DNA of 33,049 nt from the NCBI GenBank assembly GCA_022562615.1, contig JADFOW010000008.1:1-33049 (forward strand), read 5' to 3'. Numbering within the stretch: position 1 is the stretch's first letter; each line of letters begins with the position of its first letter. The translations under genes and the position numbers were made by a program. The notes under the pieces were generated by a model. The model saw only the letters and a list, made by a program, of their open reading frames with translations, was not told where the DNA came from and did no database searches. Of the stretch, positions 10,224 to 28,941 are shown in pieces. The stretch comes from Nitrososphaerota archaeon (lineage in GTDB: Archaea; Thermoproteota; Nitrososphaeria; Nitrososphaerales; Nitrosopumilaceae).

Positions 10224-11021
10224 TTAGCCTATTGTTTGTAATCTAGGATGTAATACCTGATACCCATTTTCATTGAATCGTATTGGATATGTTTGTTCGC
10301 TGTGTTTTGTTCCTCTCATTTTAATGACTTGGATGGATCTTTCCATAGTATTGGTTCTTTGAACATGATTTAAAATCACTATTCCTGATGCAGCGTACCA
10401 TTCTGGAGGTGTTCTAGAATCTAAAGTCTCTGAGATAAAAATCGAGGTACATTTTTTTTCATCTAAAGCATGAATCATCTTTTGAATACCTTGGCGGGTA
10501 TTGAATTGATTAGCATATTGCATGCTTAAAACAGAAAGTGAATCTACAACAAGACGTTTTGCGTGAATTTTTTTTATGCCTCGCAAAATCAATTGAGTTA
10601 GATGTGTAAAAGGAAAAGGCTCTGAATTATACAAAAGACCTCCGGAATCAGATACATCATCGTTCATTTTGAATGGTCTAGCATCAATAATCATAATTTT
10701 TTCTTTCTCAATTAATTTTTCAATATCCCACCCGTAACCTCTAAAATCACTGATTAATTCTTGTGGACTTTGTGTTAGGGTTACAAATAATCCCGGCTCT
10801 TCAAAGTCAGATGCACCATTATAAAGAAATTGCATCCCAAATGTGGATTTTCCACTTCCAGACTCTCCTGATAAGACGATTGTTTTTCCTTCTTTCAACC
10901 CTCCATCCACAATCAAATCAAATCCAGGAATTCCTGTTCGTATCTTTAATTCTGAATTATTCACAATAAAAAGCAGATAATTTTCTATATAAAGAGGTGT
11001 GAGTTTATCTGATATACACAT
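10224..11021 (-). CDS. Single-domain KaiC-like RecA-superfamily ATPase
   Basis: RTGIPGFDLIVDGGLKEGKTIVLSGESGSGKSTFGMQFLYNGA (Walker A); LVVDSLSVLSM (Walker B); a GTG start at 10964 (VNNSELKIRTGIPGFD) may be the true start. Confidence 0.88.
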   Translation of the reverse strand: MCISDKLTPLYIENYLLFIVNNSELKIRTGIPGFDLIVDGGLKEGKTIVLSGESGSGKSTFGMQFLYNGASDFEEPGLFVTLTQSPQELISDFRGYGWDIEKLIEKEKIMIIDARPFKMNDDVSDSGGLLYNSEPFPFTHLTQLILRGIKKIHAKRLVVDSLSVLSMQYANQFNTRQGIQKMIHALDEKKCTSIFISETLDSRTPPEWYAASGIVILNHVQRTNTMERSIQVIKMRGTKHSEQTYPIRFNENGYQVLHPRLQTIG

Positions 11022-11044
11022 ACAGGAATGTTACTAAATTATAA

Positions 11045-11899
11045 CTAAAGTGGAATTGATTTTGACTTTGACCACAATAAATCAAATAATAATTTCTTGG
11101 AATAAATCATTGCACTTGAATTTGTCCACATTGCAGTAATGTTTTCTTTTCCAGATTCAGAATTTTTCATAAAGAATAAAATCTCTTCGTTGTCTTTTAT
11201 TACAAAACAAATATCACCATTTGTATTTGCAGGAATTTTTTTGACCTTAGTTCTATCTATATCATCAAAGACATAAAGTGTTCTTGTTGAGGAATTTGTT
11301 AGAATCTTTAATTCAAGGTCCGATTTGTCTAGGGGTTCTAGAAAGTTTGCATGATAAAACTTGAGGAAGTCTTTTTCATTTCCAATTAGCTGGAATTCAT
11401 TTTTGGTGTTTATTATCATGTCATTGATTTTACCATAAATTTGATTCTCACCTTGCAACATTTGAAATTTATCCTCTTTTGCCACATCAGGTTCATTGTG
11501 ATAATTTGGAATTGAATTCCAAAGTTTAGTTAACTCTTCTTCTTGTTTTTCTAATTTTTTAATTCGTTCTTTTTCCGTATTAACCATTGATTTTATCGCT
11601 TTGGATAATGGTAAAGCTGAAAATTTAATTGGGTGCTGAAACGTGGCAGATGCAATACCCTTGTTTTGAAGAGTTGTGAGAAGATGATAAGTTTCAGTTC
11701 TTGGTAGTTTTAATGCTCTACAAACCTCAGGTGCAGTCTTGGAACCATATTTTCCTAAAAATATGTATACCTTACATTGATTTGCGGTCAAACCAAATTT
11801 TGAAAATTGCTCTTGCAATTGATCAATGGATTGCTTATGTTCATAGGTTCGTGAATCCGGATCATTTTCAAATATTGTTGTTTGATTAGTCTCAGCCAA
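11045..11899 (-). CDS. TrmB-family transcriptional regulator (full length)
   Basis: FGLTANQCKVYIFLGKYGSKTAPEVCRALKLPRTETYHLLTTLQNKGIASATFQHPIKFSAL is a TrmB winged helix followed by a C-terminal domain. Confidence 0.88.
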   Translation of the reverse strand: MAETNQTTIFENDPDSRTYEHKQSIDQLQEQFSKFGLTANQCKVYIFLGKYGSKTAPEVCRALKLPRTETYHLLTTLQNKGIASATFQHPIKFSALPLSKAIKSMVNTEKERIKKLEKQEEELTKLWNSIPNYHNEPDVAKEDKFQMLQGENQIYGKINDMIINTKNEFQLIGNEKDFLKFYHANFLEPLDKSDLELKILTNSSTRTLYVFDDIDRTKVKKIPANTNGDICFVIKDNEEILFFMKNSESGKENITAMWTNSSAMIYSKKLLFDLLWSKSKSIPL

Positions 11900-12070: not shown

Positions 12071-12625
12071 TTATTCACACCCCACAGTTAAGATCGATTT
12101 GAAGGAAAATTTTTCGTGTTTTAATTGGGTTTTAATGAAGGCTAACTCATATGGCCCCTCATGCTGCTCATAACCTATGCCCGCCAATTCCTTTTTAATT
12201 CCTGATTTCATTAATTGTTCAAGACTGTCCCTTGTTTTCTTTAATCTTTCAGATTCGACCTTCATCTCCTCTAATGATTTAAAATACAGTTCCAGTTCAC
12301 CACGAGTTCCTACTCCGTTGTAAAGATGTAAATTTTCATAATCTATCCAGTTTTCTAATTGTCCTTTTTTTGATTTTTTCTTTTTATTTGTAGTTTTTTT
12401 GTTTTTAGAATTTTTATTTTCTGTTTTTTTATCTTTAGAATTTTCTGGATTTAATTTATTTTTTAAATCAGATAGTTCCTCAGAATTATTTTTTTCACCT
12501 TCTCGTATTTTGTCTCCTATTAATTTTGATTGTAGGTCAATTTTGTTGGTTAGTTCCTTAGCTTGCTTATCAATTGATTCTTGTAATTCTTGAATTGAAT
12601 TAAAACGAAAAATTTTTTGATACAA
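12071..12625 (-). CDS. Lysine-rich coiled-coil hypothetical protein
   Basis: 184-aa ORF with low-complexity KKTENKNSKNKKTTNKKKKSKK; 2 bp from the upstream ORF. Confidence 0.55.
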   Translation of the reverse strand: MYQKIFRFNSIQELQESIDKQAKELTNKIDLQSKLIGDKIREGEKNNSEELSDLKNKLNPENSKDKKTENKNSKNKKTTNKKKKSKKGQLENWIDYENLHLYNGVGTRGELELYFKSLEEMKVESERLKKTRDSLEQLMKSGIKKELAGIGYEQHEGPYELAFIKTQLKHEKFSFKSILTVGCE

Positions 12626-12627
12626 AT

Positions 12628-13188
12628 CTATGAAGTCTCTTTTGTCTTTGGAGTTTCTAAAGCATTTTGTTTTTCCATGTTTTGATTTAAATTATTTGAA
12701 GAGTCTTGGTTAGAAGAATCAAGTGAAAGTTCTGATTTCGTACTTTCTGAATTTATTTTTTCGATTTTTTCTAATTTTTTAGTTACAGCCTTTAAGAATG
12801 TTATATTTTGATTTTGAATAACCTTTTCTTTTTTACATAATTCAATTATTGGCATAATTGAATTTTTTAGAATTTTAGATATTTGCTTAGTTGAAAATTC
12901 ATCTAATCTTTTTTGCTCAATTTTTCCGTTGGCTCTTTTAATTACAATGTCCAACGAAGGTGTTAAAGTGATTTTTGCATCATCTTGTTCGTTGAATATG
13001 TTCACTGGTAAATCTACTGAAAATCCTAGAAATTCGGTGATTACCTTCAAAGAATTGTACAGTTCGTCAATTACATTTCCCTTTTCACTTTCTAACTCGT
13101 AAATTTGTACAGATTCGTCCACCAGTAAATCGGTGGTTTTTAACACCTCATCAAATTCCTTAATATCAACCTCAGGGCTGGGTTCCAT
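12628..13188 (-). CDS. Hypothetical protein with acidic/Ser-Asn-rich tail
   Basis: 186-aa ORF; C-terminus SELSLDSSNQDSSNNLNQNMEKQNALETPKTKETS. Confidence 0.55.
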   Translation of the reverse strand: MEPSPEVDIKEFDEVLKTTDLLVDESVQIYELESEKGNVIDELYNSLKVITEFLGFSVDLPVNIFNEQDDAKITLTPSLDIVIKRANGKIEQKRLDEFSTKQISKILKNSIMPIIELCKKEKVIQNQNITFLKAVTKKLEKIEKINSESTKSELSLDSSNQDSSNNLNQNMEKQNALETPKTKETS

Positions 13189-13251: not shown

Positions 13252-15699
13252 TTAAATGACTCTAACGATACCAACCAGACTAGTCTGAAGGAAAATTTGG
13301 CCCGCTGAATCATAACCGTCTAGGAATACGTACATTCGATATCTTCCTTCAGGAATTAGGTCACTAGAGGTATTTCCTGGCTGCGATCGAGGTTTTTCAA
13401 ATTCAAATGTACCCGTAGTTCCTGAAGGGATAACTGGACTATCTTGATTAGGTCCAAGAGATGCTGAACCAGAACCAATTATGAATGAAGCATAAGGTGT
13501 ACCCGTTAATTCATCTTCAAAAACGACCCGGCTCTGATATTTAATCCAATTATCTCTGGGACTGGGATTAAAAATACTAATTTCTCCTTTGGCTGAATTA
13601 TCATATGTCGCATAACCTGAAAATGCTCTGTCTGGATTAGGGGTTTGAAGGAAACTACTACCCAGACCAGAGACAACAGATACATCATCTATTATCATTT
13701 TCATATTCAAATTACCTACACTTTTAGGAACATACGTCATGTTTATCATCAATCTTTCTCCCAACCCAACAACTCTTTCCTCAGTTGTAATTGCCGTAAA
13801 ATTAAACTGTCCCCAAATATCGGCAACCGGTGCAGAATATTCTCCAAAATCACTTGCATAGGGAATAGGAAAACTCAAAGTTTGTGAGATAGTTTTGTTT
13901 GAAAGCCCCAGATCAGTTCCAAACTCATCAACAATTCTTAAATCAAAATCCAAAAGATGACTGCTAGTTCCATAATTAGTATTGAAAAGATCAGTTACTT
14001 CTTGTTCTGCACTTTCAATTAATCCATAATCATCCCAATGAATTATATCATCAATTAATCCATTAAATCCATCTGTTCCACTTGCATCGCTTGCCCCAAT
14101 GAAAATACTTCCTTGAAGTGCAATGGCACTATTTCCACCATTTGTGTCTGAATCTCTCAGTAATCCATCAACGTACAAATCACAATCATTGTCACCCGGC
14201 ATTATTGCGACAAAATGATGCCATGAATCATCCTTATAGTTTACAGTACTAGTGCAAGTAGCAATAGTTGAACCTGTATCTAGCTGAAAGACCAAATGTC
14301 CGTTTTGATTTAAAAATATTTGATATGATTTTTGCCCATTGTTAGTATCACCAAAATATATCATCTGGTTACTTGCAGGACCAGAGCTATATGCGTAAAA
14401 CCATCCAGAGGTTGAAGCCGGACTATCGTCAAGATCATTATAGTTGTTAGTCAGTATCGATGCAAATTGATTTCCTGAAAATTCATATGCTCCTGCTCCG
14501 TGATGAGCTGTGCCATTCCATTGAGGTCTATTTGGACTTGTTCCCAAAGTCATAATTGTATTTCCAGTAGAATCTAAAGGTGAATCAAGGTCGCTTTCAA
14601 AGTGATATGACATAGTTTCACTGTTCGAACCAGTATGCATCAAACTTTCAGGCATTGGGCTGCTGATATATCTAAGAGTGGCATTCCAGCTCCCAGCCGG
14701 AATATTGATTGTTACATTACTGTCGGTATTTGTATAAAATACTGCATTTGTTAAGCTAAAATCAATTATTTCTCCTGAATCATTTTCCGGAGAAGAAGCC
14801 CACATTTGCCGCTCCCCTATAGCATCAATGGTTTCTTTATGGAATAATAAAACATTTTGGGATATCAATCCTGAGGTTAATATGCCGCTTGACAAGGAAG
14901 TGGTGCTTTGTTCTGCAGTTTCAATTTTTTGAACCTCCACATTTTTTGTTACAGTATTTCCTGGAACTCCATTTAGAATACTTGCCTCAAACCTAACTTT
15001 GTCTCCATCATCTCCAGATATTCTGTATGTCCATTCAAAAATAACAGTATTACCTTTTTCTAACACCGCATGTGGTTCTGGTGTTGTGCCTTCAAATTCT
15101 GCTAGCGCTCCAAAAGAAATTACGTTCAGTACTGGCTGAATATTTGTATAAATCGTGCTTTGTGTAGAATTGTTTGTTACAGATAGCAGAATTGTAGATA
15201 TAAAATTGGTTGGAACCTCCTCAGGCAATGCAAATAATTGTAAATGTAGTGGCTCAGTTGAGGCATTTACGGAAAATTCTTTTGTGGTTCCTCTATCTGT
15301 AACCAATTTCAGTTTGTACGATTGTGTTTCTAAAGCAATAAAAGGCACATCTTTGAGAATATCCTCAATAGTATTTCCTGTAGTGACAGTATTGTTTAAA
15401 TCAAATTTATAGACTTGATCTACACCAGTTACATTTTCTACCCATAATCTTGCAAAAGTTACTGGGATATCTCCAGAGTTATATATGTCTAAATTAATCT
15501 TGTTGTTTTCTATTGTTAATTTTGATATATCAAAAGATTCTTTTTTTCTGTTTTCTCTTTCTTGGGCAACCGCAAAAACATTTTCTGAAAAATTTTCAAA
15601 TAAATTCATGGTATATGTCAGATAACTAGCAGCAGTAATGATAACAATAAGGAAAAAAACTCCACCAACAATAGTAGTTAGCGCTCTTCTTTGTTTCAT
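13252..15699 (-). CDS. Pilin-like/adhesin protein: class III signal peptide plus LamG-like (ConA-like) domain
   Basis: N-terminus MKQRRALTTIVGGVFFLIVIITAASYLTYTM; central HHGAGAYEFSGNQFASIL...SGWFYA...WHHFVAIMPGDNDCDLYVDGLL...FNGLIDDIIHWD is LamG-like. Confidence 0.8.
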   Translation of the reverse strand: MKQRRALTTIVGGVFFLIVIITAASYLTYTMNLFENFSENVFAVAQERENRKKESFDISKLTIENNKINLDIYNSGDIPVTFARLWVENVTGVDQVYKFDLNNTVTTGNTIEDILKDVPFIALETQSYKLKLVTDRGTTKEFSVNASTEPLHLQLFALPEEVPTNFISTILLSVTNNSTQSTIYTNIQPVLNVISFGALAEFEGTTPEPHAVLEKGNTVIFEWTYRISGDDGDKVRFEASILNGVPGNTVTKNVEVQKIETAEQSTTSLSSGILTSGLISQNVLLFHKETIDAIGERQMWASSPENDSGEIIDFSLTNAVFYTNTDSNVTINIPAGSWNATLRYISSPMPESLMHTGSNSETMSYHFESDLDSPLDSTGNTIMTLGTSPNRPQWNGTAHHGAGAYEFSGNQFASILTNNYNDLDDSPASTSGWFYAYSSGPASNQMIYFGDTNNGQKSYQIFLNQNGHLVFQLDTGSTIATCTSTVNYKDDSWHHFVAIMPGDNDCDLYVDGLLRDSDTNGGNSAIALQGSIFIGASDASGTDGFNGLIDDIIHWDDYGLIESAEQEVTDLFNTNYGTSSHLLDFDLRIVDEFGTDLGLSNKTISQTLSFPIPYASDFGEYSAPVADIWGQFNFTAITTEERVVGLGERLMINMTYVPKSVGNLNMKMIIDDVSVVSGLGSSFLQTPNPDRAFSGYATYDNSAKGEISIFNPSPRDNWIKYQSRVVFEDELTGTPYASFIIGSGSASLGPNQDSPVIPSGTTGTFEFEKPRSQPGNTSSDLIPEGRYRMYVFLDGYDSAGQIFLQTSLVGIVRVI

Positions 15700-16148
15700 G
15701 GCCCCATAACATAATCTTGATAGAGCACACCTTTTTCAGTAGTGATTGTAATCTTGATAGGATCGGTAGTTGTCCAATTATATGTGATTTCAGTTGAGAA
15801 ATCATCGTTGCGTGCCATTCCACCATCGGTAATAAGCAAGTCAGTTTTATCGACAGAGTTGTCTAGAGTTATTTTTGTTACATTTAAGCCAACATTTCCA
15901 ACATTACTCAATGTCACATTAATGAATCTGCTTGACGTTTCGTTGCCAAACCAAACGTGTTCAATCACTAAAAATTCATTTAACTTGTTTACTCCTTCTG
16001 AATAAACTGCAGTAATTTCATTTTGTTCAGCCGCAAATATGCTGTTAGACCAAGCAACCAACACACTTCCCATAATAGCTACTGCAGAAAGTAAAATTCC
16101 AGTTGACACTACAGTAGCTAACGCTCTTCTTTTGGCATGCTTAACCAT
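15696..16148 (-). CDS. Minor pilin/archaellin-like protein
   Basis: MVKHAKRRALATVVSTGILLSAVAIMGSVLVAWSNSIFAAEQNEI class III signal; 4-bp ATGA overlap with the adhesin gene. Confidence 0.82.
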   Translation of the reverse strand: MVKHAKRRALATVVSTGILLSAVAIMGSVLVAWSNSIFAAEQNEITAVYSEGVNKLNEFLVIEHVWFGNETSSRFINVTLSNVGNVGLNVTKITLDNSVDKTDLLITDGGMARNDDFSTEITYNWTTTDPIKITITTEKGVLYQDYVMGP

Positions 16149-16223: not shown

Positions 16224-17060
16224 TCAATTATGCCCGAAACAGTCTTTGCCGCAAGCTGGGCATAAATTATTGTCTGATTTTTCGCTAAACAATCCTATTT
16301 GGTTTGAGATTCCAAATGCAAAGATTGCATATGTCCATAGGAATAGAACTTCTGCAAGATGTCCAGGGTAGTAAATATTTTGAAGGGACAAAAATAGAAT
16401 ACTATTATCCCCTATTATTTGGGTAATTATTCCTAAACATAGAAGAGATATCATAAAATTTACCCCGCCTTTAAAAAACAAAATAACACCAATCAGGGCA
16501 GGAATTAAAATAATTGAATCTAAAATTGGATAAGCAAGTAGTATTAGTAAATTGCCTGTCATCAAATCTGCTTCAGAATCCATAATCATCATTACAGATG
16601 GAATTAAAAGAGAAATTGAGATTATAGATATTAAAATTACTAGTTTTTTTGGAATTAGTCTGGTAAATGGTTTTATATAAAAAACAAGAGATGCAAAGAA
16701 TAATTGATATCCAGTAATATAGAAAAAATCATCAGCGTATTCCCATACCTCAGCACCTAACACAACACTGTATAATACATCTACAGTTTCGGCACAAAAC
16801 CAATATGCCGAAAACAACATAAACAAAATCCAGGCCTTTCCATGATTACCCTTTAGCCCATATTTTGAAACCATGAAAACTGAAAAAAACATTAAAACCC
16901 CAGAAAGAATAATTGAAACCCAATTTGTAACATGAGCGGCAATATCTTGCCCTGCAAAATTCGCCAGTAGAACAAGCGAAGTTATTCCCAATAAAGTAAA
17001 AAGAAGATAGTCTTGTACCTTGAATCTTTGATAGAATAATTGCAACTGCTTACCTCGCAA
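16224..17060 (-). CDS. Polytopic membrane protein with C-terminal CPxCGxxC
   Basis: About seven hydrophobic segments; C-terminus SEKSDNNLCPACGKDCFGHN; 11-bp overlap with the MoxR-like gene. Confidence 0.7.
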   Translation of the reverse strand: MRGKQLQLFYQRFKVQDYLLFTLLGITSLVLLANFAGQDIAAHVTNWVSIILSGVLMFFSVFMVSKYGLKGNHGKAWILFMLFSAYWFCAETVDVLYSVVLGAEVWEYADDFFYITGYQLFFASLVFYIKPFTRLIPKKLVILISIISISLLIPSVMMIMDSEADLMTGNLLILLAYPILDSIILIPALIGVILFFKGGVNFMISLLCLGIITQIIGDNSILFLSLQNIYYPGHLAEVLFLWTYAIFAFGISNQIGLFSEKSDNNLCPACGKDCFGHN

Positions 17061-18336
17061 TTAGGTCAAGAAATTCTTTTACAGGTATGGATGCAGACAT
17101 GTTATCAAGATTTTTCTTAATAGCATCTACAATAGTAACATGTGCTTTTCCATAGATGTCTTTTAGAATTCTACTTAAGAATTCTGGTTCCTCATAACAA
17201 TCAGCAAGAGTTCGATTATAATCTTCCATCAATCTTTGTTTTACTTTATTTAAATCAGGCTTTCCAATTTCCAGCAATGATTTCTCAATTGCCGCAATGA
17301 TCAAAACCTTTGGGTCATCACTTGTTTGAGTTATTCCCCAGTCAACTGATTTTATAATTTTTCTTACGTCTTCTTGAACTTCAAAATCATCACTTGTCAT
17401 TGCCACAAGAGTTTCATTTGCAGAGTCTATTGGAGATGCACCATCAGCAATTATTCGTGCCCAATTTGCCAAATCGCCCACAGACGGACCATATGGCAAG
17501 TCTCCGTTTTTGTATTCTTGGCGCAATTTAGCTGCCACTTCTACAATATTTGCTGCAGTTTCACGTGGAATTTCCGCTCTTTCCATAAGTAAATTTATTT
17601 CTTTTTCATCAATGTGGTTATCCACACTCATATAATCAAAATTTAGCCAAACACTCATTCTTCTTCTAAATGCAGCATTAAGAGGTTTAGTGCCAGTAAA
17701 TTCTGCTGAAAAAGGGTTCATACTAATAATCATGTATGCATCTTTGTGTCGATCGATAAGCTCATTATCTTTTTCATTTAATACCATGTGGCCCCTTGCA
17801 TCCAAAATAGGATTTAGTTTTGTTGCTACATCTTGCTTCATCATGTTTGCTTCATCAAGATAGAGTATTCCTCCGTATCTACACCAGGAAGTAATTATTC
17901 CATCAATCCAGTTTTCTTTTCCCAATCCAATATATCGTCCAAACAGGTCGTATGCAGATGTTTGTAAACCACAGTTGATTTCCCATAATGGAAGTTGTGT
18001 TAATTCTGCTACCAAATAGATAATATGGGTTTTACCAGTACCACTAGGTCCAATTAATGCACATTGTTTGAAGTACCCAAGTGCTCTTACAATTCGTTCT
18101 ACATAGTTTTCCCCCTTGTCATAGTAAGGTGGGGTATCAGTAGGAATCAACTCTTGCATGTCAGTTGGGAAATTAAAATTATCTGGATTAATGTATTTTT
18201 TTATATCATATTGGTGTAATTTTGATGAATCTGTTTTCTTATTTTTTGAAAAATTGATTTTTAAACTAAAGGACTCACTTTCAATTCTAGATGTTTGAAG
18301 ATTCTTTACATTACCCTCAGATGAACCTGAAACCAT
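17050..18336 (-). CDS. MoxR/CbbQ-type (AAA_5-like) AAA+ ATPase with C-terminal extension
   Basis: Walker A GPSGTGKTHI; Walker B GGILYLDEANMM; sensor region YMIISMNPF; AFRRRM arginine motif. Confidence 0.9.
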   Translation of the reverse strand: MVSGSSEGNVKNLQTSRIESESFSLKINFSKNKKTDSSKLHQYDIKKYINPDNFNFPTDMQELIPTDTPPYYDKGENYVERIVRALGYFKQCALIGPSGTGKTHIIYLVAELTQLPLWEINCGLQTSAYDLFGRYIGLGKENWIDGIITSWCRYGGILYLDEANMMKQDVATKLNPILDARGHMVLNEKDNELIDRHKDAYMIISMNPFSAEFTGTKPLNAAFRRRMSVWLNFDYMSVDNHIDEKEINLLMERAEIPRETAANIVEVAAKLRQEYKNGDLPYGPSVGDLANWARIIADGASPIDSANETLVAMTSDDFEVQEDVRKIIKSVDWGITQTSDDPKVLIIAAIEKSLLEIGKPDLNKVKQRLMEDYNRTLADCYEEPEFLSRILKDIYGKAHVTIVDAIKKNLDNMSASIPVKEFLDLIAR

Positions 18337-18427
18337 AAAATGTAGTGATTCTAAATGTGTTAAACAAAAGAGATGTAATGTTGTACTACAGACAGGCTGT
18401 TAATTATCAACAATTTAGATATTATTC

Positions 18428-18976
18428 ATGATTCATGAGGTGGAAGTATCCAATTTAATGTTCAACAAGATTTCTAATGAACAAAAAAATTTTAATAAAT
18501 ACAACATTAACGTCGAGCTCGAAGAAGAATCAAGTGATGATGAAAAAACAATTCTTAAATATTCTCTCGATTTAACCTCAAATCCTAAAAATGCTGTCAT
18601 TAACATTAGTGGAAATACTACATTAAGTGGAGATCCTTCAGAAATTGAAAAATTCCTAAAACAAGAGGATGAAAAAACTCCAGAGGTCGTATCTTTAATC
18701 TACCAAGAACTATTTCCTTTAATGTATATTATTTCCAAAACTATGAAAATCCCTTCACCATCTCATACGCTATCTCAAAACATAATTGGAGAGCCAGAAG
18801 ATCATAGTGAGAAATCTGAGACAACTAATGAAGAATCATCAGAGACACCAAATGAAAGTAATGACGAGAAGATGGATGAGTCCAGTAAGCCAATGAAAGA
18901 GTCACAAGAAGCTGAGATTAAAAAAGATGAGGAACCAGATGTGTCAGAGAAACAAAATAGCGAAAATGAATCGTAA
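18428..18976 (+). CDS. Hypothetical protein: beta-rich N-terminal domain (possibly SecB-like) plus acidic disordered tail
   Basis: VELEEESSDDEKTILKYSLDLTSNPKNAVINISGNTTLSGD...; tail from about aa 120 is E/S/K-rich. Confidence 0.6.
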   Translation: MIHEVEVSNLMFNKISNEQKNFNKYNINVELEEESSDDEKTILKYSLDLTSNPKNAVINISGNTTLSGDPSEIEKFLKQEDEKTPEVVSLIYQELFPLMYIISKTMKIPSPSHTLSQNIIGEPEDHSEKSETTNEESSETPNESNDEKMDESSKPMKESQEAEIKKDEEPDVSEKQNSENES

Positions 18977-18985
18977 TGATTAGAA

Positions 18986-20545
18986 TTGCAACAAACATTT
19001 CTTGATATAATTTATAAAATTTTTTATGATACTTCACAAAGAGATATCACTGATGTTCGGTTACTTTTATCTGAAAAATTTTCTTTTCCTTCAATAGAGT
19101 TTGAACCAAAAATAGAAGTAAAAATTCCAATCCCAAAAAAAACAGATAATGGGATTACGTATTCAGGTTATTATTTTAATGATTCACCACAAGAACAAAT
19201 TGTAGTGTGGGGTCTTTTCCTAGCAACAGTGTATCATCTTGCTGCCCATGTTGCTGTTTCAGATTACTCCTTGTATAGCAATTGGGTTAGAAACAAAACT
19301 CCAAGAATTTTTTGGAAAGTCATTGATTTTATCGAAGATGATGCCGTAAAACGATATCTTTCGTCAACCAATCCAGATGTCTGGGAAAACATTTCGGAAA
19401 TTAGTCACAAACAACCAAAATACAATAAATTTAATAAAATGGAATCCAGGTACGCACTAAAGGTAGGCTCCAAAACAATAGATGGTATCAAACAAGAAAT
19501 GAATAAAGAGCCTCTTCTATGTTTTGATAAAAAGCACCAAAATAATTTGCTTGGTTGGGCCTCAGAATTATACAAAAATCAACAAATGTTGTATGAAGTT
19601 GCTCCCGACTATTACGAACAACGTAATCTCAATCAATTATTAGTCTTTAAAAAAAATAATATTGAATTTTCACCTTCGGGAAAATTTCAAACCACTATTA
19701 AAAAATTAAATTTCTTATATTATGAAGAAAAAGAAAGGCTTAGAAATATTTTACATAAAATTCGTAAGGATGTATTTGGATTAAATTTTGAAGAAATAAT
19801 TCTACCGACTGAGGACATTTATGAATATTTTAAACTTAAAGAAAAAAATAAAAAAATGATAAAAAAGATCAGAGAACAAATTAGAAGTGTTTATAACAAC
19901 TCAGAAGATCCTCAAACAAATTTTTATGGTGAAATAGACATGGAACTAGCAATTCAAGCTATTGCAAGTAATAGTGAAAAATATGCAGAAGTCTTTAACA
20001 AAACAGAAGAGCAAAGAATTGAAGAGACATGGAGTATATTGATTGATAACAGTGCGAGTTTAAGGTTACGATTTAAACAAGTCAAGGATTTTATGCTTTG
20101 TCTTGCCGAAGCCTCTGAAGAATTAACAGGACCCTCGGGCTCATGGGGTCTTTATAGTTATGATCAAAAATTTTCTATTTTAAAAGACCATAAAGGAAAA
20201 TACAATCAAGATGTAAAAGCAAGGATCGGGGGTTTGTATAGTGGAGGACTATCATACACTCCTGATGCCATTTTACTAGCTGGAAGAATGCTTGCAAGAA
20301 CTCCAGCAGATATAAAACATCTTTTTGTGTTTACTGATGATTATCCAACTGGAGTGTGGAATTATGATAAAAAAGTCTACCTTGCAATCAAGGAAACAGA
20401 AAGAACTGGAATAGAGGTAATAGGGATTGGTCTATCGTCAAACATTACAAAATATTTTACAGAGTCATGTTGGGGGACAGATATTAGAGATTTGGTAGAC
20501 AAATTTGTTAAAATATATCGCAGAAACTCTTCAAAATTCGTGTGA
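18986..20545 (+). CDS. vWA-domain protein (CobT/NorD/CbbO-like MoxR partner)
   Basis: MIDAS-like DNSAS, GGLSYTPDA and FTDDYPTG; N-terminal HLAAH and FIEDDAVKRYL resemble the CobT/NorD-type layout; frame start at 18986 is non-ATG in the track. Confidence 0.8.
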   Translation: MQQTFLDIIYKIFYDTSQRDITDVRLLLSEKFSFPSIEFEPKIEVKIPIPKKTDNGITYSGYYFNDSPQEQIVVWGLFLATVYHLAAHVAVSDYSLYSNWVRNKTPRIFWKVIDFIEDDAVKRYLSSTNPDVWENISEISHKQPKYNKFNKMESRYALKVGSKTIDGIKQEMNKEPLLCFDKKHQNNLLGWASELYKNQQMLYEVAPDYYEQRNLNQLLVFKKNNIEFSPSGKFQTTIKKLNFLYYEEKERLRNILHKIRKDVFGLNFEEIILPTEDIYEYFKLKEKNKKMIKKIREQIRSVYNNSEDPQTNFYGEIDMELAIQAIASNSEKYAEVFNKTEEQRIEETWSILIDNSASLRLRFKQVKDFMLCLAEASEELTGPSGSWGLYSYDQKFSILKDHKGKYNQDVKARIGGLYSGGLSYTPDAILLAGRMLARTPADIKHLFVFTDDYPTGVWNYDKKVYLAIKETERTGIEVIGIGLSSNITKYFTESCWGTDIRDLVDKFVKIYRRNSSKFV

Positions 20546-20713
20546 TTTTATTCCTTTATTTTTATAAATTTAAAAAGGATTTATTGATTTTTCATTAATA
20601 TAGTAAAATTTTACTAGAAATTTCAAAAAGCCTTTAGGCACAGTATGATATTGTCTGTCCAAAAATGTTACACATCAGATCCTATAACCTCGCTAGGTGT
20701 TTTTTTGTTAATA

Positions 20714-21361
20714 ATGAAAAACCACGTTTTCACAAAGAGAAAAGGTCTCAGTACAGTACTTACGACTGTAATTATCCTGGTGGCTTCCGTAGTTCTCGGA
20801 TCTGGTGTTGTATTGTATGGAACAAGTATGTTCCAAACAGTAGCCCAACAAGAGAGTATCGAGGTGCAGGGAATTCAGATCTGGGTAAATGCTACTGATC
20901 CATTAGGTGATGCGTGGGGAGCAGCAGGTGTTAGAAACAACGGTGATAAGATCTTATCTGTCGATACCATTCGAATCAAAGGTGTAACTGTGCCTTTTTC
21001 AAGTTGGTATATTGATGTTGATCAAACTAGAGTAACTGTAGAAAACTACCAAAGTACTTTCGTTCATGAAGGTACTGGTGGTGTAGGAACTATAATGAAC
21101 GACTCTCCAGTTGTAACAACTGCATGTACAACCGCAGGAACAACCTTGACCATTGATTTGGATGCATCAGGCACATTGCCCACTCTCTGTTTAGTACAGG
21201 GTTCAGGCCCAGTTGGACTTAACCCAGGTGAGAGAGTGATTATTTACTTCCAAATACCACAAGAGAAAATAACAACTCTTGATGCAGGTGCTTCAACAAC
21301 GTTGAACATATTTGCAGGAGAGGCAGGCGCTCCCCTTAGCGTAATCATCGCAAACCCATAG
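20714..21361 (+). CDS. Major pilin/archaellin-like protein
   Basis: From Met at 20714: MKNHVFTKRKGLSTVLTTVIILVASVVLGSGVVLYGTSMFQTVAQQESI; Gly/Thr-rich extracellular domain. Confidence 0.85.
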   Translation: MKNHVFTKRKGLSTVLTTVIILVASVVLGSGVVLYGTSMFQTVAQQESIEVQGIQIWVNATDPLGDAWGAAGVRNNGDKILSVDTIRIKGVTVPFSSWYIDVDQTRVTVENYQSTFVHEGTGGVGTIMNDSPVVTTACTTAGTTLTIDLDASGTLPTLCLVQGSGPVGLNPGERVIIYFQIPQEKITTLDAGASTTLNIFAGEAGAPLSVIIANP

Positions 21362-21419: not shown

Positions 21420-22970
21420 ATGAAATCAGTAAACGAGAATCAAATAGAATTAGGAGATATTCTTAGCAAAGAACTTTTAGATGAAAGTACCATCAATGAG
21501 ATTTCAAATCAATTTCAAGTAGTAAAAGAATATCCGCTAAATGCACCTTTTAGTTATGCTAAAATTCTATATGATGAAAAAAATTCATATTTTCAGTATT
21601 TTGTAGATGAAATAAAGTTAAATTTGGACGAAGAGCGAATTTACAAAGATCTCTATACATTTGTTGAACAAAGTTTAGATTCACTAGAGCCTACAAAAGA
21701 AAAACAATTTGACGCTCACTTAAATGATGTAATAAAAAAAAATGAAGGATTTTTTATTTCTAATCCCGTAGCAAGCATGGAGAAAGTCAAATATTTTCTA
21801 AAAAAAGATATTATGGGTTATGGGGAAATTGATGCTTTAATGCATGACCCAAACATCGAAGATATTAGTTGTAGTGGTCCTAATATTCCATTATATGTTT
21901 GGCATAGAAATTATGATAGTATATCTTCAAATATTTCATTTGAATCACATCAAAAATTAAATTCGTTTGTTACAAGAATTGTTTTCAAATCTGGAAAACA
22001 TGTGAGTATAGCGCATCCTATTTCTGACCTTGCTCTAACTGGAAATCACAGAATTTCAGTTTTGTACCAAAAAGAGATTACTCCTAGAGGAACTAGTTTC
22101 ACCATACGAAAATTCAAACAAGATCCTTACACAATTATAGATCTTATAGGGTTTGGTACATTCGATCTTGAAACAGCAGCATATCTTTGGATGATGATTG
22201 AAGCAAAAATGTCAATAATGATAATTGGTTCCACAGGTAGCGGAAAAACAACCATACTTAATGCAATTGCCGGTCTAGTAAGTGAAAATGATAAAATATT
22301 TTCCGTGGAAGATGTTGCGGAAATCAATCTTCCTCACGATAACTGGTTTTCATTAATTTCAAGGTCTGGATATGGACCAAACGATGAGGGAGAAATAGGG
22401 TTGTACGAATTAATCAAATCAGGAGTCAGACATAGGCCAGATTATTTCATTGTTGGTGAGATCAGAGGCTCAGAGGCGTATGTCATGTTCCAAGCAATGG
22501 CTACAGGTCATGGTGGTCTATCAACCATGCACGCCGATAGTTTTGAGTCTGCAAGTAAAAGATTACAGCAAAAACCAATGAACATACCACCAGCTTATCT
22601 CTCTTTGATGAATTGTGCCCTTGTCATAAAGAGGGTAAAAGACAAAGCAACAGGTAAAAGTATGAGACGCGCAATATCTATTGAAGAAATTTCAAGCAGC
22701 TCCCCCCCATATTCAGTTATAAAGTGGGATCCCAAATCAGATTATTTTGAGCATTCGTTCGAAGCAAGTAAAAACCTTAAAAAAATTTCTGAACAAACAG
22801 GTGACGAATTTAACGAGGTGATAAAAGAACACCTTAGAAGAACAAAAATTTTCAAATGGATGTCATCGAACAATATTCGCGAACATAGAGCAGTAACAGA
22901 AATGATCAGAAAATACTACAATGATCCCAAATCAGTTCTAAAAAAAGTCAATTATGGTGATGAATTATAA
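21420..22970 (+). CDS. Type II/IV secretion-type ATPase (ArlI/FlaI/TadA-like)
   Basis: Walker A IIGSTGSGKTTILNAIAGL; VGEIRGSEAYVMFQAMATGHGGLSTMHAD; RBS-like GGAG upstream. Confidence 0.93.
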   Translation: MKSVNENQIELGDILSKELLDESTINEISNQFQVVKEYPLNAPFSYAKILYDEKNSYFQYFVDEIKLNLDEERIYKDLYTFVEQSLDSLEPTKEKQFDAHLNDVIKKNEGFFISNPVASMEKVKYFLKKDIMGYGEIDALMHDPNIEDISCSGPNIPLYVWHRNYDSISSNISFESHQKLNSFVTRIVFKSGKHVSIAHPISDLALTGNHRISVLYQKEITPRGTSFTIRKFKQDPYTIIDLIGFGTFDLETAAYLWMMIEAKMSIMIIGSTGSGKTTILNAIAGLVSENDKIFSVEDVAEINLPHDNWFSLISRSGYGPNDEGEIGLYELIKSGVRHRPDYFIVGEIRGSEAYVMFQAMATGHGGLSTMHADSFESASKRLQQKPMNIPPAYLSLMNCALVIKRVKDKATGKSMRRAISIEEISSSSPPYSVIKWDPKSDYFEHSFEASKNLKKISEQTGDEFNEVIKEHLRRTKIFKWMSSNNIREHRAVTEMIRKYYNDPKSVLKKVNYGDEL

Positions 22971-24409
22971 TGTTATCGATTAGCCAGATTAAAGAAAAAG
23001 GATTTGAGCGCAAGCAAGGAAAAAAAATAAACAAAGAATTACCTTACTTTATCACACTAGTAACCCTGCTTAGCAGTGCAGGAATTGGACCGTATTTTAT
23101 GCTGCAACGAATAAAATCCATGGAATTGATTCCTACAATAAAAAATGAAACTCATAAAATGCTAAACCGTATTGATCTGTTAGGGGTCGATCCTTTAGAG
23201 GTAATGCGTAAAGTAAGAACACATTCTAGTTCAAAGGCATTGGGTGAATTTTTTGATGGTTATGTATCAACTGTAGAAAGTGGTGGAAATATAGTAAATT
23301 ATCTTAAAAGTAAAATGAAAACCATTTTTGATAGACATGCTGAATCACAAAAACAAGAAGTTGTCAAGTTAGGTGCCCTTGTAGAGGCATACATGACCAT
23401 TCAAGTTGTTTTGTTGGCAGTGTATATTATCGGTGCAGCTGTTATTTCAGACCCATTTGCAGCCTCTACATCCGGAATTAGTACTGAAGTGATATTTCTG
23501 GTTCTAACACCTGTAATAGCTGTTATATTTCTTTTCGCTGCCAATAACAACTCTCTCGTAAAGAGTCCTGAAGTGGACATGAAAAAAATCATCATGTTTG
23601 CAGCCCCCGGATTGATAATAAGTGGGATTGTAATTGGATTAAATTTGCTGCCTGATCCTTCAATGGACCCTTATCTGTTAGGTGGTGCTCTCATAGCATC
23701 TTCAATTCTTCCCACAATTTATTTCAAAAAATCCTATGCAAAAAATATAGCCGCAGAAGATTCCACCCCAAAAATACTTCGAACTATTTCAGAAGCTCGT
23801 AAGACCGGGATGAGTCCTGAAAGGAGTGTCATACATGCATGCAAAAGAAAAGAATATGGCTTGTTTAATTCAGTGGCAAATGGAATTGCAAATAAAATCG
23901 AATGGGGTGTTGATTTTAAAACAATTTTCCAGTATTTACAAAAAGAGGTTCAAGCTTTTAATGTCTTGATTAGTTTCAATATATTATTTGAGTTAATTTC
24001 AGCAGGTGGGGGAAACCCAGAGACACTTGATTCACTGACGGAGACTAGTGAAAGAATGCACGAAATTCAAAAGGAAAAACGAGATCTGTTAATGCCCTAC
24101 TTGTTCGTTGGTTTTATTTTAATGGGAACTACTGGATTTACTACTTTGCTGGTCATTGATTCATTTGGGGATGTTGCCCAACAAAGTCAGAATATATCAA
24201 ATATTGAAGTAGAGATTACAGGATCCACATTAGGTTTATTCCCCCTTATTGTGCTCATTCAATCTTGGACCGCTGGATTATTCTTAGGACGAGTGATAAA
24301 GGGTGCGTTCTCAGGTGGATTTTTCTACTCCATACTTCTAGTAATAATGACTTTGATTGGAATTACATTAGTTCAATTTTCAATAATCGATGTAAATTCA
24401 CTATTCTAG
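22970..24409 (+). CDS. Type II secretion F-domain membrane protein (ArlJ/FlaJ/TadC-like)
   Basis: Multiple TM segments and T2SSF-like repeats; 1-bp overlap (TAATG) with the ATPase gene. Confidence 0.88.
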   Translation: MLSISQIKEKGFERKQGKKINKELPYFITLVTLLSSAGIGPYFMLQRIKSMELIPTIKNETHKMLNRIDLLGVDPLEVMRKVRTHSSSKALGEFFDGYVSTVESGGNIVNYLKSKMKTIFDRHAESQKQEVVKLGALVEAYMTIQVVLLAVYIIGAAVISDPFAASTSGISTEVIFLVLTPVIAVIFLFAANNNSLVKSPEVDMKKIIMFAAPGLIISGIVIGLNLLPDPSMDPYLLGGALIASSILPTIYFKKSYAKNIAAEDSTPKILRTISEARKTGMSPERSVIHACKRKEYGLFNSVANGIANKIEWGVDFKTIFQYLQKEVQAFNVLISFNILFELISAGGGNPETLDSLTETSERMHEIQKEKRDLLMPYLFVGFILMGTTGFTTLLVIDSFGDVAQQSQNISNIEVEITGSTLGLFPLIVLIQSWTAGLFLGRVIKGAFSGGFFYSILLVIMTLIGITLVQFSIIDVNSLF

Positions 24410-24477: not shown

Positions 24478-26934
24478 TTGAAAACTGTATTACTCTTACT
24501 GTTGATTGTAGCTACTATAGTTACACCTAACGCGTATGGACAAGAACCTAAAAATTTTGGATATAAACTTTTACCAGAAAAACTTGTTGAAGGAACAGAA
24601 GGCATTTTACAAATATATGGACTACAAAAAAATATTCCCATCCCAAATGCCATTGAGAATTTGATAGTAACTTCTTCAGATCAAAGCATTGTTAAAATTT
24701 TAGAATTGTCCATAGATAAAGATACTTCAATTATCTCAGTAAGAATTCAAGCAAATGATTCAGGTAATGCAGATATTGCAATAGCTGCTCCTGGTTTTAA
24801 ATCCGAAGAATTTTCCACAATTGTATATGATATTAAACAAGGAGAACAGCAATTACTTGTAAAAACCGTTCCTGATACTTTTACAATAAATGGTCCCACA
24901 AAAGGTTATTTCTCAGTGGAGTTGGCAGATATAGATTCTAATCCAACCTTCGCAAAAAAAGATACAATTATTTCTATCACTGCTTCTAATTCTGAAATTG
25001 TTACACTCTATCAAAAAGAAATTACCATAAATCAAGGAGAGTATTTTGCGATAGGTGAATTTAAGGTAAACAAACCAGGGGAAGTGACCATTTATGCTGA
25101 AAATCCAAATACTGATTCTGGTAGCAGTAAAATCACAGTTATTGGAGCAACGGCAGAGGGTGAAGAAAATTATAAAATTCAGCTATATGTAATACCAGAA
25201 AAAATTAGTAACTTTGCAACATCTAGTACCTTTGTCATCGTTCAATTGCAAGGAGCAGATGGTTCCCCAATAAAGGCCACACATCTTATCCCTGTTTCTT
25301 TGAAAGTAGATTATGCTAAGGCCATATTTAACGACAGACGAACAACAGAAATAAGCACTATTGATTCCTTAGTAATTCCCCCTGGGTCTTCAGTTGGATA
25401 TGCCAAACTATCAGTCATTGCAGGATTAGAAGAAACATACAAGGTAAGTATTTCTGCTGAAGACTATCTCGTTTCAGATTCAGAAGAATTTAAGACTGTT
25501 TTAACGCCTGATTTAAACAATCCATTGACAAAATTCAAAACAATTCCATTGTTAGCTTCAGGTACAGAGCAGTTAATCGGAGTTTTATATCCTGCAGATA
25601 AGAATGGAGTTTCTCTAATAAACTTGAAAACAGTTGAAACAGAAATTAATTCTTCGGACAGGGAGGCTTTGGCAATATCCGATGATAGAATGGAGACAGG
25701 TTCGGGTGCAAAATTAATTTTCGGAAAGCTAGGTCAAACAAAACTAGACAGATTAGAAATTACCGTAATAGGTGAAGAAAAAGAGACAGTTTTTCCAATA
25801 GTATATGGTCCGAAAAGAGTAGAGCTCGGATTGGTGTCTGAACCATTAATTTCCAAGGTAATGCCTGGAACTGATTTTCCAATGATGGTTTATTTGACTG
25901 ATAGTGATGATGCAAGCTGGTATTTTCCAGACACATCAAATGTGGTTATGGGTCCAAATGAGTTTGTAAAAACATTTGTGCAAACTATTAGTGAAGGTCA
26001 ATCAATAGTTATGTTGAATTCACATTCAATTAAAGAGGGAAAAACAATTCTTGACTTTGAAGTAAATGAATTTACAACTACGTTGGATTTGGATACAGGA
26101 ATTTCTAAACCCTCAATGGTGGAATTGGCATATCCAGATCACTTGTTATCCGGGATGAAAAACATTTTATCATTACAAATACTAGATGATGAGGGAAACC
26201 CAATTTTTGCAAATAAAGATATAGAATTTAGAATAGCTGCAAGTGATGACACAATTGAAATGCCCCAAACAGTAATAATTAAAAAAGCAACGTATAGTTC
26301 ATTTTTTGATATAATTCCCAGACAAACAATTGAGACAGAAATCTCAGTGCTTGCAAGCGATTTTCCACTAACAAAATTTAAACTTTTCACTGTTGAAACA
26401 AAACCATCGTTAATCATCTCAACTGTGAATTCCATTTCTCCAGGAGAATCGTTTGATTTAGTATTAGATGTCAAAATTTTAGATGTCCCTCTTAGCGACA
26501 TAAAAGTAAATTGGGATATTCAAGGTGCGCAAATTCAAGAAATATCCGAAACTACAGACAATAGTGGAAAAATTAAACTCACTTTAATTGCAGATGATGC
26601 TGACAGGATTAAAGTAAAGGCGATTACCTCTGATTTTAATCAAATAACAGCCTCAAAAGAGATCCAAATAACTAAACCTGGTGAAACATCTTCTGAAATT
26701 TCTGGAAGTGGTGGGAATTTACTTGAAAATAACCTGGGATTTATTCTAATTCCCGTAGTAATAATTGGAATTGCTGTGTTGATTAGAAAAAAGAATTTAC
26801 TTGAGCCCATATCTGATAGATTCCCTGTAGTTGAAAGTGTTCTTAACCGGTTTGGTGAGATATTTGAACGGCTAGGAATTTTGGAAAGGCTTGAAACAAT
26901 CAAAGAAAAAATCCCTGTTATTAAAAACAGATAA
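24478..26934 (+). CDS. Large secreted, membrane-anchored protein with Ig-like/beta-sandwich repeats
   Basis: N-terminal LLLLLIVATIVTPNAYGQ signal; repeated beta-rich segments; C-terminal TM GFILIPVVIIGIAVLIRKK; TTG start in the track. Confidence 0.75.
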   Translation: MKTVLLLLLIVATIVTPNAYGQEPKNFGYKLLPEKLVEGTEGILQIYGLQKNIPIPNAIENLIVTSSDQSIVKILELSIDKDTSIISVRIQANDSGNADIAIAAPGFKSEEFSTIVYDIKQGEQQLLVKTVPDTFTINGPTKGYFSVELADIDSNPTFAKKDTIISITASNSEIVTLYQKEITINQGEYFAIGEFKVNKPGEVTIYAENPNTDSGSSKITVIGATAEGEENYKIQLYVIPEKISNFATSSTFVIVQLQGADGSPIKATHLIPVSLKVDYAKAIFNDRRTTEISTIDSLVIPPGSSVGYAKLSVIAGLEETYKVSISAEDYLVSDSEEFKTVLTPDLNNPLTKFKTIPLLASGTEQLIGVLYPADKNGVSLINLKTVETEINSSDREALAISDDRMETGSGAKLIFGKLGQTKLDRLEITVIGEEKETVFPIVYGPKRVELGLVSEPLISKVMPGTDFPMMVYLTDSDDASWYFPDTSNVVMGPNEFVKTFVQTISEGQSIVMLNSHSIKEGKTILDFEVNEFTTTLDLDTGISKPSMVELAYPDHLLSGMKNILSLQILDDEGNPIFANKDIEFRIAASDDTIEMPQTVIIKKATYSSFFDIIPRQTIETEISVLASDFPLTKFKLFTVETKPSLIISTVNSISPGESFDLVLDVKILDVPLSDIKVNWDIQGAQIQEISETTDNSGKIKLTLIADDADRIKVKAITSDFNQITASKEIQITKPGETSSEISGSGGNLLENNLGFILIPVVIIGIAVLIRKKNLLEPISDRFPVVESVLNRFGEIFERLGILERLETIKEKIPVIKNR

Positions 26935-26953: not shown

Positions 26954-27620
26954 TCAGTTACTTAAGACATCAAGGAAATCATCCGTTGATCTATGCGAAG
27001 AAATATTTTTGATATTTTCCTGTAAGGAATTCAATATATTGTCATATGATTCACCCAACAAATCTTTTAAAACTTGTTTTAAAAATTCAGGATTGTCATA
27101 ACAGTCCTCTAGGGTGCTGTTGTAATCTTTTTACAACATTAAAACAATTTTATCAAATTCTTCTAATCCCAGCTCCAAGAATGTATTCTTGATTGCCAAA
27201 GTGGCCATGGTTTTTTTCATCTGTTCTAGAGAGTCTTCTGAAGGCATACACAGCTCAGGGGTTTTTCTTAAAATGTCATCAACATCTATTGGTTCTCTAA
27301 TAACAGTTGATGGTGTTAATCTGTTTAATTCAATTTCTTTTCCAATGCTTAATTTTTCATAAATTACTATTACATTTGTCTCGATATAATATCACGTATT
27401 TTTTTCAAAGCAAAAAGTCCATCATATGTTGGCATCAACATATCTAAAAACAATACATATGGTTTTAATTTTTGAAATAAAAATACCGCCCTTGACCACT
27501 GTATCCTTTTCCTACTACTTGGATTCCATTATTAGTTAACAATTCACTGAATAATTGAATAGTTTCTTTATCGCCATCTATGATTACAGCACGAATTAAC
27601 AGTCTTTTTTTATGCGTATT
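26954..27620 (-). pseudogene. Decayed response regulator: CheY-like receiver plus C-terminal domain shared with the MoxR-like ATPase
   Basis: Minus-strand pieces LIRAVIIDGDKETIQLFSELLTNNGIQVVGKGYSGQ / AVFLFQKLKPYVLFLDMLMPTYDGLFALKKIRDII / ETNVIVIYEKLSIGKEIELNRLTPSTVIREPIDVDDILRKTPE...KIVLML*KDYNSTLEDCYDNPEFLKQVLKDLLGESYDNI...DDFLDVLSN*; two frame changes and one in-frame TAA (27131-27133). Confidence 0.82.
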
Positions 27621-28251: not shown

Positions 28252-28941
28252 ATGATAGAATTAGATATCTCTCAAATTAGAATTTTGTTTGCTTTAGTAA
28301 TGTTAGGTTCTGCAACAATAATTGACATTCGTAAACGTGAGATAAGTGATTTATTGTGGATTATTTTTGGGGTAATTTCAGTAATTCTTTTATTCTTTGA
28401 ACCAAATCTAATCGAAGCGTTATTTGGTGTTGGATTTTCATTAATTGTAGCTCCCCTAGTGCTAGTACTTTGGAGATTTGGGTTGTTTGGAGGAGCTGAC
28501 GCTTTGGGATTGATTGTTCTATCAGCTTTGGCACCTATGGCCACACTATCAGATTCAATAGTAAGTCCATTTTCAATTGTGGTCAACAGTGCATTATTGT
28601 CAGTAACTCCGATGATAGTATATTTTATACGTAATTCTGTGCTAATTTTGAGAAAAGACAATATCTTCCAAGACTTTGATGAGACAAAATCAAAGAAAGT
28701 TTTTGCGATGTTTCTAGGTTACAAGTCAAAAAACCCGAAATTCAGTTTTTCGTTGGAAAAACAAGTAGGAAATAAAAAAAGACTTAACATTACCTTACAT
28801 CATTCAGATACAGCTGAATATTGTACCACACCAAATACTTGGGTTACTCCGGGTTTGCCTTTCATGATTTTCATATTAGGAGGATTCATACTGCAGTTGT
28901 TATTTGGAGATGTGATCCTAGGATTAATTGGAATAGTATAA
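28252..28941 (+). CDS. A24-family prepilin/preflagellin peptidase (ArlK/FlaK/PibD-like)
   Basis: DIRKREISDLLW and FGLFGGADALGL (GxGD-type second Asp motif) in a polytopic protein. Confidence 0.88.
   Translation: MIELDISQIRILFALVMLGSATIIDIRKREISDLLWIIFGVISVILLFFEPNLIEALFGVGFSLIVAPLVLVLWRFGLFGGADALGLIVLSALAPMATLSDSIVSPFSIVVNSALLSVTPMIVYFIRNSVLILRKDNIFQDFDETKSKKVFAMFLGYKSKNPKFSFSLEKQVGNKKRLNITLHHSDTAEYCTTPNTWVTPGLPFMIFILGGFILQLLFGDVILGLIGIV

Follow-up and report, generated by a model that had tools for sequence, protein, structure and literature searches.

What are a MoxR-type AAA+ ATPase gene and a gene for a von Willebrand factor A (vWA) protein doing inside the type IV pilus (T4P) locus of a Nitrososphaerota archaeon? 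The two genes lie on a stretch of 33,049 nucleotides, analysed here as a whole and called the window (contig JADFOW010000008.1 of assembly GCA_022562615.1), which is contig 41 of a Nitrosopumilaceae genome assembly of 1.54 Mb that is 95% complete. Both are open and full length and are located within the pilus locus, as an initial annotation made from the sequence had described. That annotation considered that a pilus role for such a pair would be new; Makarova et al. had already linked a pair of a vWA protein and a GvpN-like ATPase to the thaumarchaeal T4P in 2016 and proposed that it acts as a regulator (PMC4858521). The pair in the window is almost certainly this arCOG02900/arCOG00441 pair of T4P subclade 4A, belonging to the same pilus type, with the two equated by the family descriptions in the portion of that paper considered here. 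The same portion mentions no SecB-like partner, five-gene module, genus-specific fusion or co-occurrence beyond synteny, and a limited literature search, with supplements outside it, turned up neither the SecB-like partner nor the five-gene module nor the MoxR fusion. We consider it somewhat probable that one archaeal pilus type has a chaperone module of its own, under signal control, and that MoxR and vWA are its motor. The module is represented in the window by the following features:

17335..18336, minus strand: MoxR/CbbQ/NorQ-type AAA+ ATPase core, residues 1-334
17050..17334, minus strand: C-terminal extension that MoxR has only in this genus, residues 335-428, related to NitrOD5 below threshold
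18428..18790, plus strand: SecB-like chaperone fold, residues 1-121, divergent from MoxR (AlphaFold, Foldseek, alignment)
18791..18976, plus strand: acidic tail (34% D/E) of the SecB-like protein, disordered
18986..20545, plus strand: vWA protein with an N-terminal domain and a C-terminal vWA domain, intact metal ion-dependent adhesion site (MIDAS)
12628..13188, minus strand: p186, module protein with a predicted helical hairpin and a small beta head
12071..12625, minus strand: p184, module protein adjoining p186

MoxR, vWA, the SecB-like protein, p186 and p184 form a conserved five-gene module. Close relatives of MoxR (84-90% identity) come from Nitrosopumilaceae metagenome-assembled genomes (MAGs), and among the more distant carriers are Nitrosarchaeum, Ca. 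Nitrosotalea devanaterra, Nitrososphaera sp. and many Bathyarchaeota. Neighbours were counted in 36 named loci whose sequence continues for 5 kb or more to either side of MoxR. The vWA gene lies within 3 kb of MoxR in 36/36 loci and the SecB-like gene within 3.5 kb in 26/36, and within 10 kb of MoxR lie p186 in 36/36, p184 in 33/36, and the pilus genes PilB and PilC in 23/36 each. Thus the pair is not found mostly away from pilus genes and beside another enzyme, the pattern that the initial annotation had named as speaking against a pilus role. The association extends beyond neighbourhood: of 398 genomes surveyed in the phylum, 53 have both MoxR and the SecB-like protein, 2 only MoxR, 3 only the SecB-like protein and 340 neither, and in 19 of the 53 genomes the two genes are separated by over 5 kb or sit on separate contigs.

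The pilus genes around and beside the module, and one gene pair flanking the locus, are:

13252..15699, minus strand: pilin-like N-terminus followed by a LamG domain, likely adhesin
15696..16148, minus strand: pilin-like or stator-like minor subunit, weak UpsA/ArlF match, conserved beside the module
20645..21361, plus strand: major pilin-like protein (UpsA-like)
21420..22970, plus strand: pilus assembly ATPase, PilB/ArlI-like (T2SSE)
22970..24409, plus strand: platform protein, PilC/TadC (T2SSF; BasF/UpsF-like)
24478..26934, plus strand: large secreted Ig-like protein, Big_1 match below threshold
28252..28941, plus strand: prepilin (A24) peptidase
10224-11899, minus strand: KaiC-like ATPase and TrmB regulator adjoining the locus

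The window therefore contains the components of an archaeal T4P, namely a PilB-type ATPase, a platform protein, class III pilins and a prepilin peptidase, and together with the LamG adhesin these confirm the pilus context of MoxR and vWA given by the initial annotation. The KaiC-like ATPase/TrmB pair is often near the module in relatives too. In the 73 genomes of the window's family, 18 carry both MoxR and the PilB orthologue, 2 (both fragmentary assemblies) only MoxR, 0 only PilB and 53 neither. The pilus ATPases of MoxR-bearing genomes form a clade almost exclusive to such genomes: in a PilB tree of 55 sequences, which leaves aside the reference ATPases of the 2016 tree (T4P subclade 4A), a 40-member clade has support of 100/100 and 39/40 of its members come from genomes with MoxR or a module locus. 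One of those 39 (G212) has a locus with the SecB-like, p186 and p184 genes on a contig that ends at the expected place; a second, smaller clade of the tree is mixed for MoxR. A module that travels with one pilus type in ammonia oxidisers and related Bathyarchaeota suggests a dedicated, signal-controlled helper for pilus building or switching.

The sequences of the pair indicate what kind of motor this could be. The whole MoxR gene (17050-18336, minus strand) is intact and encodes 428 aa, with Pfam matches to AAA_5 (75.7 bits) and CbbQ_C (51.9 bits) that are both above cut-off. Its conserved motifs comprise Walker A GPSGTGKT, found in 104/104 MoxR homologues, Walker B LDEAN, sensor-1 Asn207 and Arg226. 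Compared domain by domain, it is closest among solved proteins to CbbQ and NorQ. Midasin was rejected as the closest relative because its high total score is a sum across several AAA domains, the best single domain reaching 52.8 bits compared to 88.9 for CbbQ. The vWA protein, of 519 aa, matches VWA_2 above cut-off, and NorD is the first match of its profile among solved structures. Its MIDAS has the form DxSxS-T-D, with Ser or Thr at the Thr position, and residues D354xS356xS358 and D451 are invariant across 22 homologues. A simple regular expression for the MIDAS missed 19/97 sequences; the 6 inspected retain the motif residues but vary in the loop, and among the rest some are truncated. Judged by sequence, then, the pair is NorQ/NorD-like. 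It shares with NorQ/NorD and CbbQ/CbbO, its best solved-structure matches, an ATPase of AAA_5 plus CbbQ_C and a partner with an N-terminal domain and a C-terminal vWA/MIDAS; it differs from them in having no metalloenzyme neighbour in the window, a Gly in place of the sensor-2 Arg, and a tie to a pilus and a SecB-like protein. A distant MoxR-vWA pair of about 30% identity in another genome (locus L064 of G113) has the normal sensor-2 Arg and adjoins corrinoid/methyltransferase-like genes, without pilus genes.

The third partner is predicted to have the fold of a chaperone. AlphaFold (22 homologues) is confident over the first 120 residues, which form four strands and two helices, and leaves the tail disordered. 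Foldseek matches against the PDB at ranks 1-23 are all SecB or SecB-like, with probability 0.97-1.00 and a best E of 3.3e-4, followed by thioesterases from E 1.4e-2. The likeness to the SecB group (E. coli SecB, M. tuberculosis Rv1957 and M. jannaschii MJ0357), with a Foldseek probability of 1.00, lies in the predicted four-stranded sheet and two helices. Unlike that group, the protein has no Pfam SecB match, adjoins a MoxR-vWA pair and, in Nitrosopumilaceae, carries an acidic tail. An assignment to SecB by sequence was dropped in the absence of Pfam or PDB sequence matches, and we name the protein SecB-like rather than SecB because it failed the sequence-family test. A link of one member to Trypco1 was also dropped, being a single weak match. 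The acidic tail was considered as a universal ligand of the MIDAS and rejected: it is missing from several lineages, so such a role would be lineage-specific at most. The SecB-like profile also finds a second, distant family of about 140-150 aa (E 1e-13 to 1e-6; L252-L261) in dozens of genomes, as single-copy genes with no Pfam family; many of these hosts lack the MoxR module, and the family may represent a SecB-like protein general to archaea.

The remaining module proteins, p186 and p184, belong to no known family, and a Foldseek search with p186 gave no significant fold match and none to known switch proteins. The architecture of p186 resembles that of a prefoldin, but its Foldseek prefoldin matches have E values of 1.2-2.3 and it was left unnamed. 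The idea that p186, p184 and the SecB-like protein are paralogues was rejected, as profile-profile comparison did not link p186 to the other two. Two loci (L112, L115) have two p186 paralogues each, one of which occupies the position divergent from MoxR.

In the window, signalling genes adjoin the module:

16224..17060, minus strand: multi-transmembrane (7-TM) sensor-like protein, overlapping the MoxR stop by 11 bp
26957..27602, minus strand: broken REC-NitrOD5-like response regulator gene, with two frame changes and an in-frame TAA

The 94-residue extra C-terminus of MoxR is present only in the window's genus. The same domain also forms the C-terminus of a REC response regulator in sister pilus loci (L034, L035, L040) and occurs in many genomes as stand-alone proteins of about 95 aa. 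It resembles NitrOD5 (PF11537), a death-like domain that serves as an output module in thaumarchaeal signalling (PMC5847659), in standing at the C-terminus of REC proteins and in having a multicopy stand-alone form; it differs in being additionally fused to a MoxR ATPase and in its Pfam scores, which reach 13.4-14.1 bits in three homologues, under the cut-off of 27. The NitrOD5 profile has no match to the window's MoxR itself or to several further stand-alone copies. The response regulator gene at 26957-27602 is intact at the same place in sister MAGs, and its break in the window may be an assembly error; an intact REC-NitrOD5-like gene is found on contig 40 (L070:646-1293). Homologues of the 7-TM protein elsewhere form the N-terminus of histidine kinases.

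How the module would work can be drawn by analogy, going from its gene content, conservation, co-occurrence, motifs and predicted fold to putative clients and a putative action. NorQ remodels NorD, twisting it so that NorD's target opens (PMC13036017), and the MIDAS of NorD is thought to bind that target (PMC9976466). In an archaeal virus, the Acidianus two-tailed virus, a MoxR protein, p618, and its vWA partner, p892, are implicated in the development of the tail (PMC4124505); likened by description, these too are a MoxR with a vWA partner implicated in an extracellular filamentous structure, although there they are viral and sit in another gene context. By analogy with both precedents, the module could be an ATP-driven remodeller whose target is a pilus component in the hold of the SecB-like protein. 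MoxR would assemble into an AAA+ ring and pull on the vWA protein or twist it, in the manner of NorQ acting on NorD, and the vWA MIDAS would grip an acidic site of a pilus component. The SecB-like protein may hold precursors, either pilins or adhesins, or serve as a handle, with p186 and p184 as possible cytosolic scaffolds, and the pilus would thereby be matured, assembled or switched with energy from ATP. In the window's genus, the extra MoxR domain and the 7-TM gene could supply sensory input. The fuller version, in which a SecB-like holdase feeds a NorQ/NorD-like remodeller and this relay is wired to sensing by fusion of the ATPase to a response-regulator output domain beside a 7-TM gene, we put forward only tentatively.

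Archaea are without SecA (PMC4361572). With pilin upkeep and assembly having to proceed in its absence, and with very few MoxR-vWA clients known, a module tied to one pilus type across Nitrososphaeria and Bathyarchaeota offers a concrete and testable client. It could also be a route through which signals control pili in archaea that rank among the most abundant of ocean and soil. The pair was left earlier as a predicted regulator, and the SecB-like partner and the gene fusion now allow specific experiments.

Several results weigh against a chaperone motor. The MoxR clade is without the sensor-2 Arg, a common though not family-defining catalytic feature, and has Gly instead (GPS[VIL]GDL, compared to LSTRLL in CbbQ and SPSLRE in the genome's other MoxR), which could make for a slow or unusual ATPase. 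The SecB-like protein has no Pfam SecB or PDB sequence match, its chaperone identity therefore rests on one predicted structure, and its Foldseek matches have TM-scores of 0.25-0.55. PilB is beyond 10 kb of MoxR in 13/36 loci, most loci without a nearby PilB having a same-clade PilB elsewhere in the genome. The complete genome G081 keeps the SecB-like protein, p186, p184 and the pilus with no MoxR or vWA near these genes and no MoxR match genome-wide, and the motor is therefore not indispensable everywhere. Finally, the co-occurrence counts and their Fisher p values ignore shared ancestry. The initial annotation raised a part for the pair in pilus maturation, assembly or remodelling; as a functional link this has good support from neighbourhood, near-perfect co-occurrence with one PilB clade and the SecB-like partner, and the chaperone mechanism is what we infer.

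The published reading, that the pair regulates the expression or activity of the pilus in the manner of ArnA/ArnB, through transcription or phospho-signalling rather than as a chaperone, agrees with the portion of the 2016 paper considered here (PMC4858521), with the TrmB regulators and KaiC-like ATPase flanking the locus, and with the signalling domains on MoxR and on the response regulator. We nevertheless find it unlikely: the extra domain is confined to the window's genus, a near-constant partner of SecB-like fold better suits the handling of clients, and the NorD-type architecture, intact MIDAS and full Walker motifs suit remodelling. A related idea places the module between sensing and motion. 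ArlCDE couples chemotaxis to the archaellum, and MoxR, vWA and their partners could similarly be a cytosolic ring or switch complex coupling sensory signals to the pilus motor, with the SecB-like protein, p186 and p184 as structural parts rather than chaperones. The long helical hairpin of p186 would fit, as would the Bathyarchaeota-like genome G327, where CheA, CheR, CheC, CheD, CheY, CheW, CheB and MCP lie between PilB/PilC and p186, around MoxR/vWA, making a complete chemotaxis set within a pilus locus, and genome G291, with chemotaxis genes beside the module. The window, however, has no chemotaxis genes, p186 has no fold match to known switch proteins and the SecB fold is typical of holdases, making this reading improbable.

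Chance proximity of a metal-cofactor insertion pair of the NorQ/NorD or CbbQ/CbbO type would explain the homology to these proteins and could draw on some Bathyarchaeota loci where iron-sulfur (Fe-S) assembly genes adjoin the module; those of L105 were identified as cysteine desulfurases (SufS/NifS) and a NifU-like scaffold. No metalloenzyme neighbour is present in the window or conserved across lineages, though, and across whole genomes the pair's constant companions are the PilB clade and the SecB-like protein; we regard this explanation as quite improbable. Highly improbable, in our view, is a MoxR-vWA ternary conflict (defence) system recruited to the locus. Such systems exist and use MoxR-vWA together with death-like domains (PMC7159879), but general scans of the window, using no dedicated models, revealed no VMAP, inactive STAND, (double) FtsH or variable effector, and the locus has conserved partners and a pilus linkage instead of effector turnover.

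A complete or near-complete chemotaxis cluster stands beside MoxR/vWA in L117 (G327) and L114 (G291), within about 12 kb of PilB/PilC in G327, and the two genomes are candidates for a pilus with its own chemosensory system. In three related Bathyarchaeota loci (L104, L108, L112), neighbours of the module match the Fe-S genes of L105 in size.

The initial annotation had MoxR and vWA as a divergent pair sharing a promoter region. They are on opposite strands of the same locus, but the SecB-like gene (18428-18976) lies between them and is itself divergent from MoxR, across 91 bp, with vWA coming after it. Nearly all other genera have MoxR followed by vWA on the same strand with 0-60 bp between. 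Thus the divergent order is derived, the MoxR/SecB-like segment having been inverted in the window's genus. In at least eight genomes (G014, G016, G017, G026, G029, G036, G042 and G068) a stand-alone copy of the MoxR-extension domain is followed immediately downstream by a 7-TM homologue. It therefore seems that the genus fused a pre-existing gene pair, domain and 7-TM protein, to MoxR along with the inversion of the MoxR/SecB-like segment.

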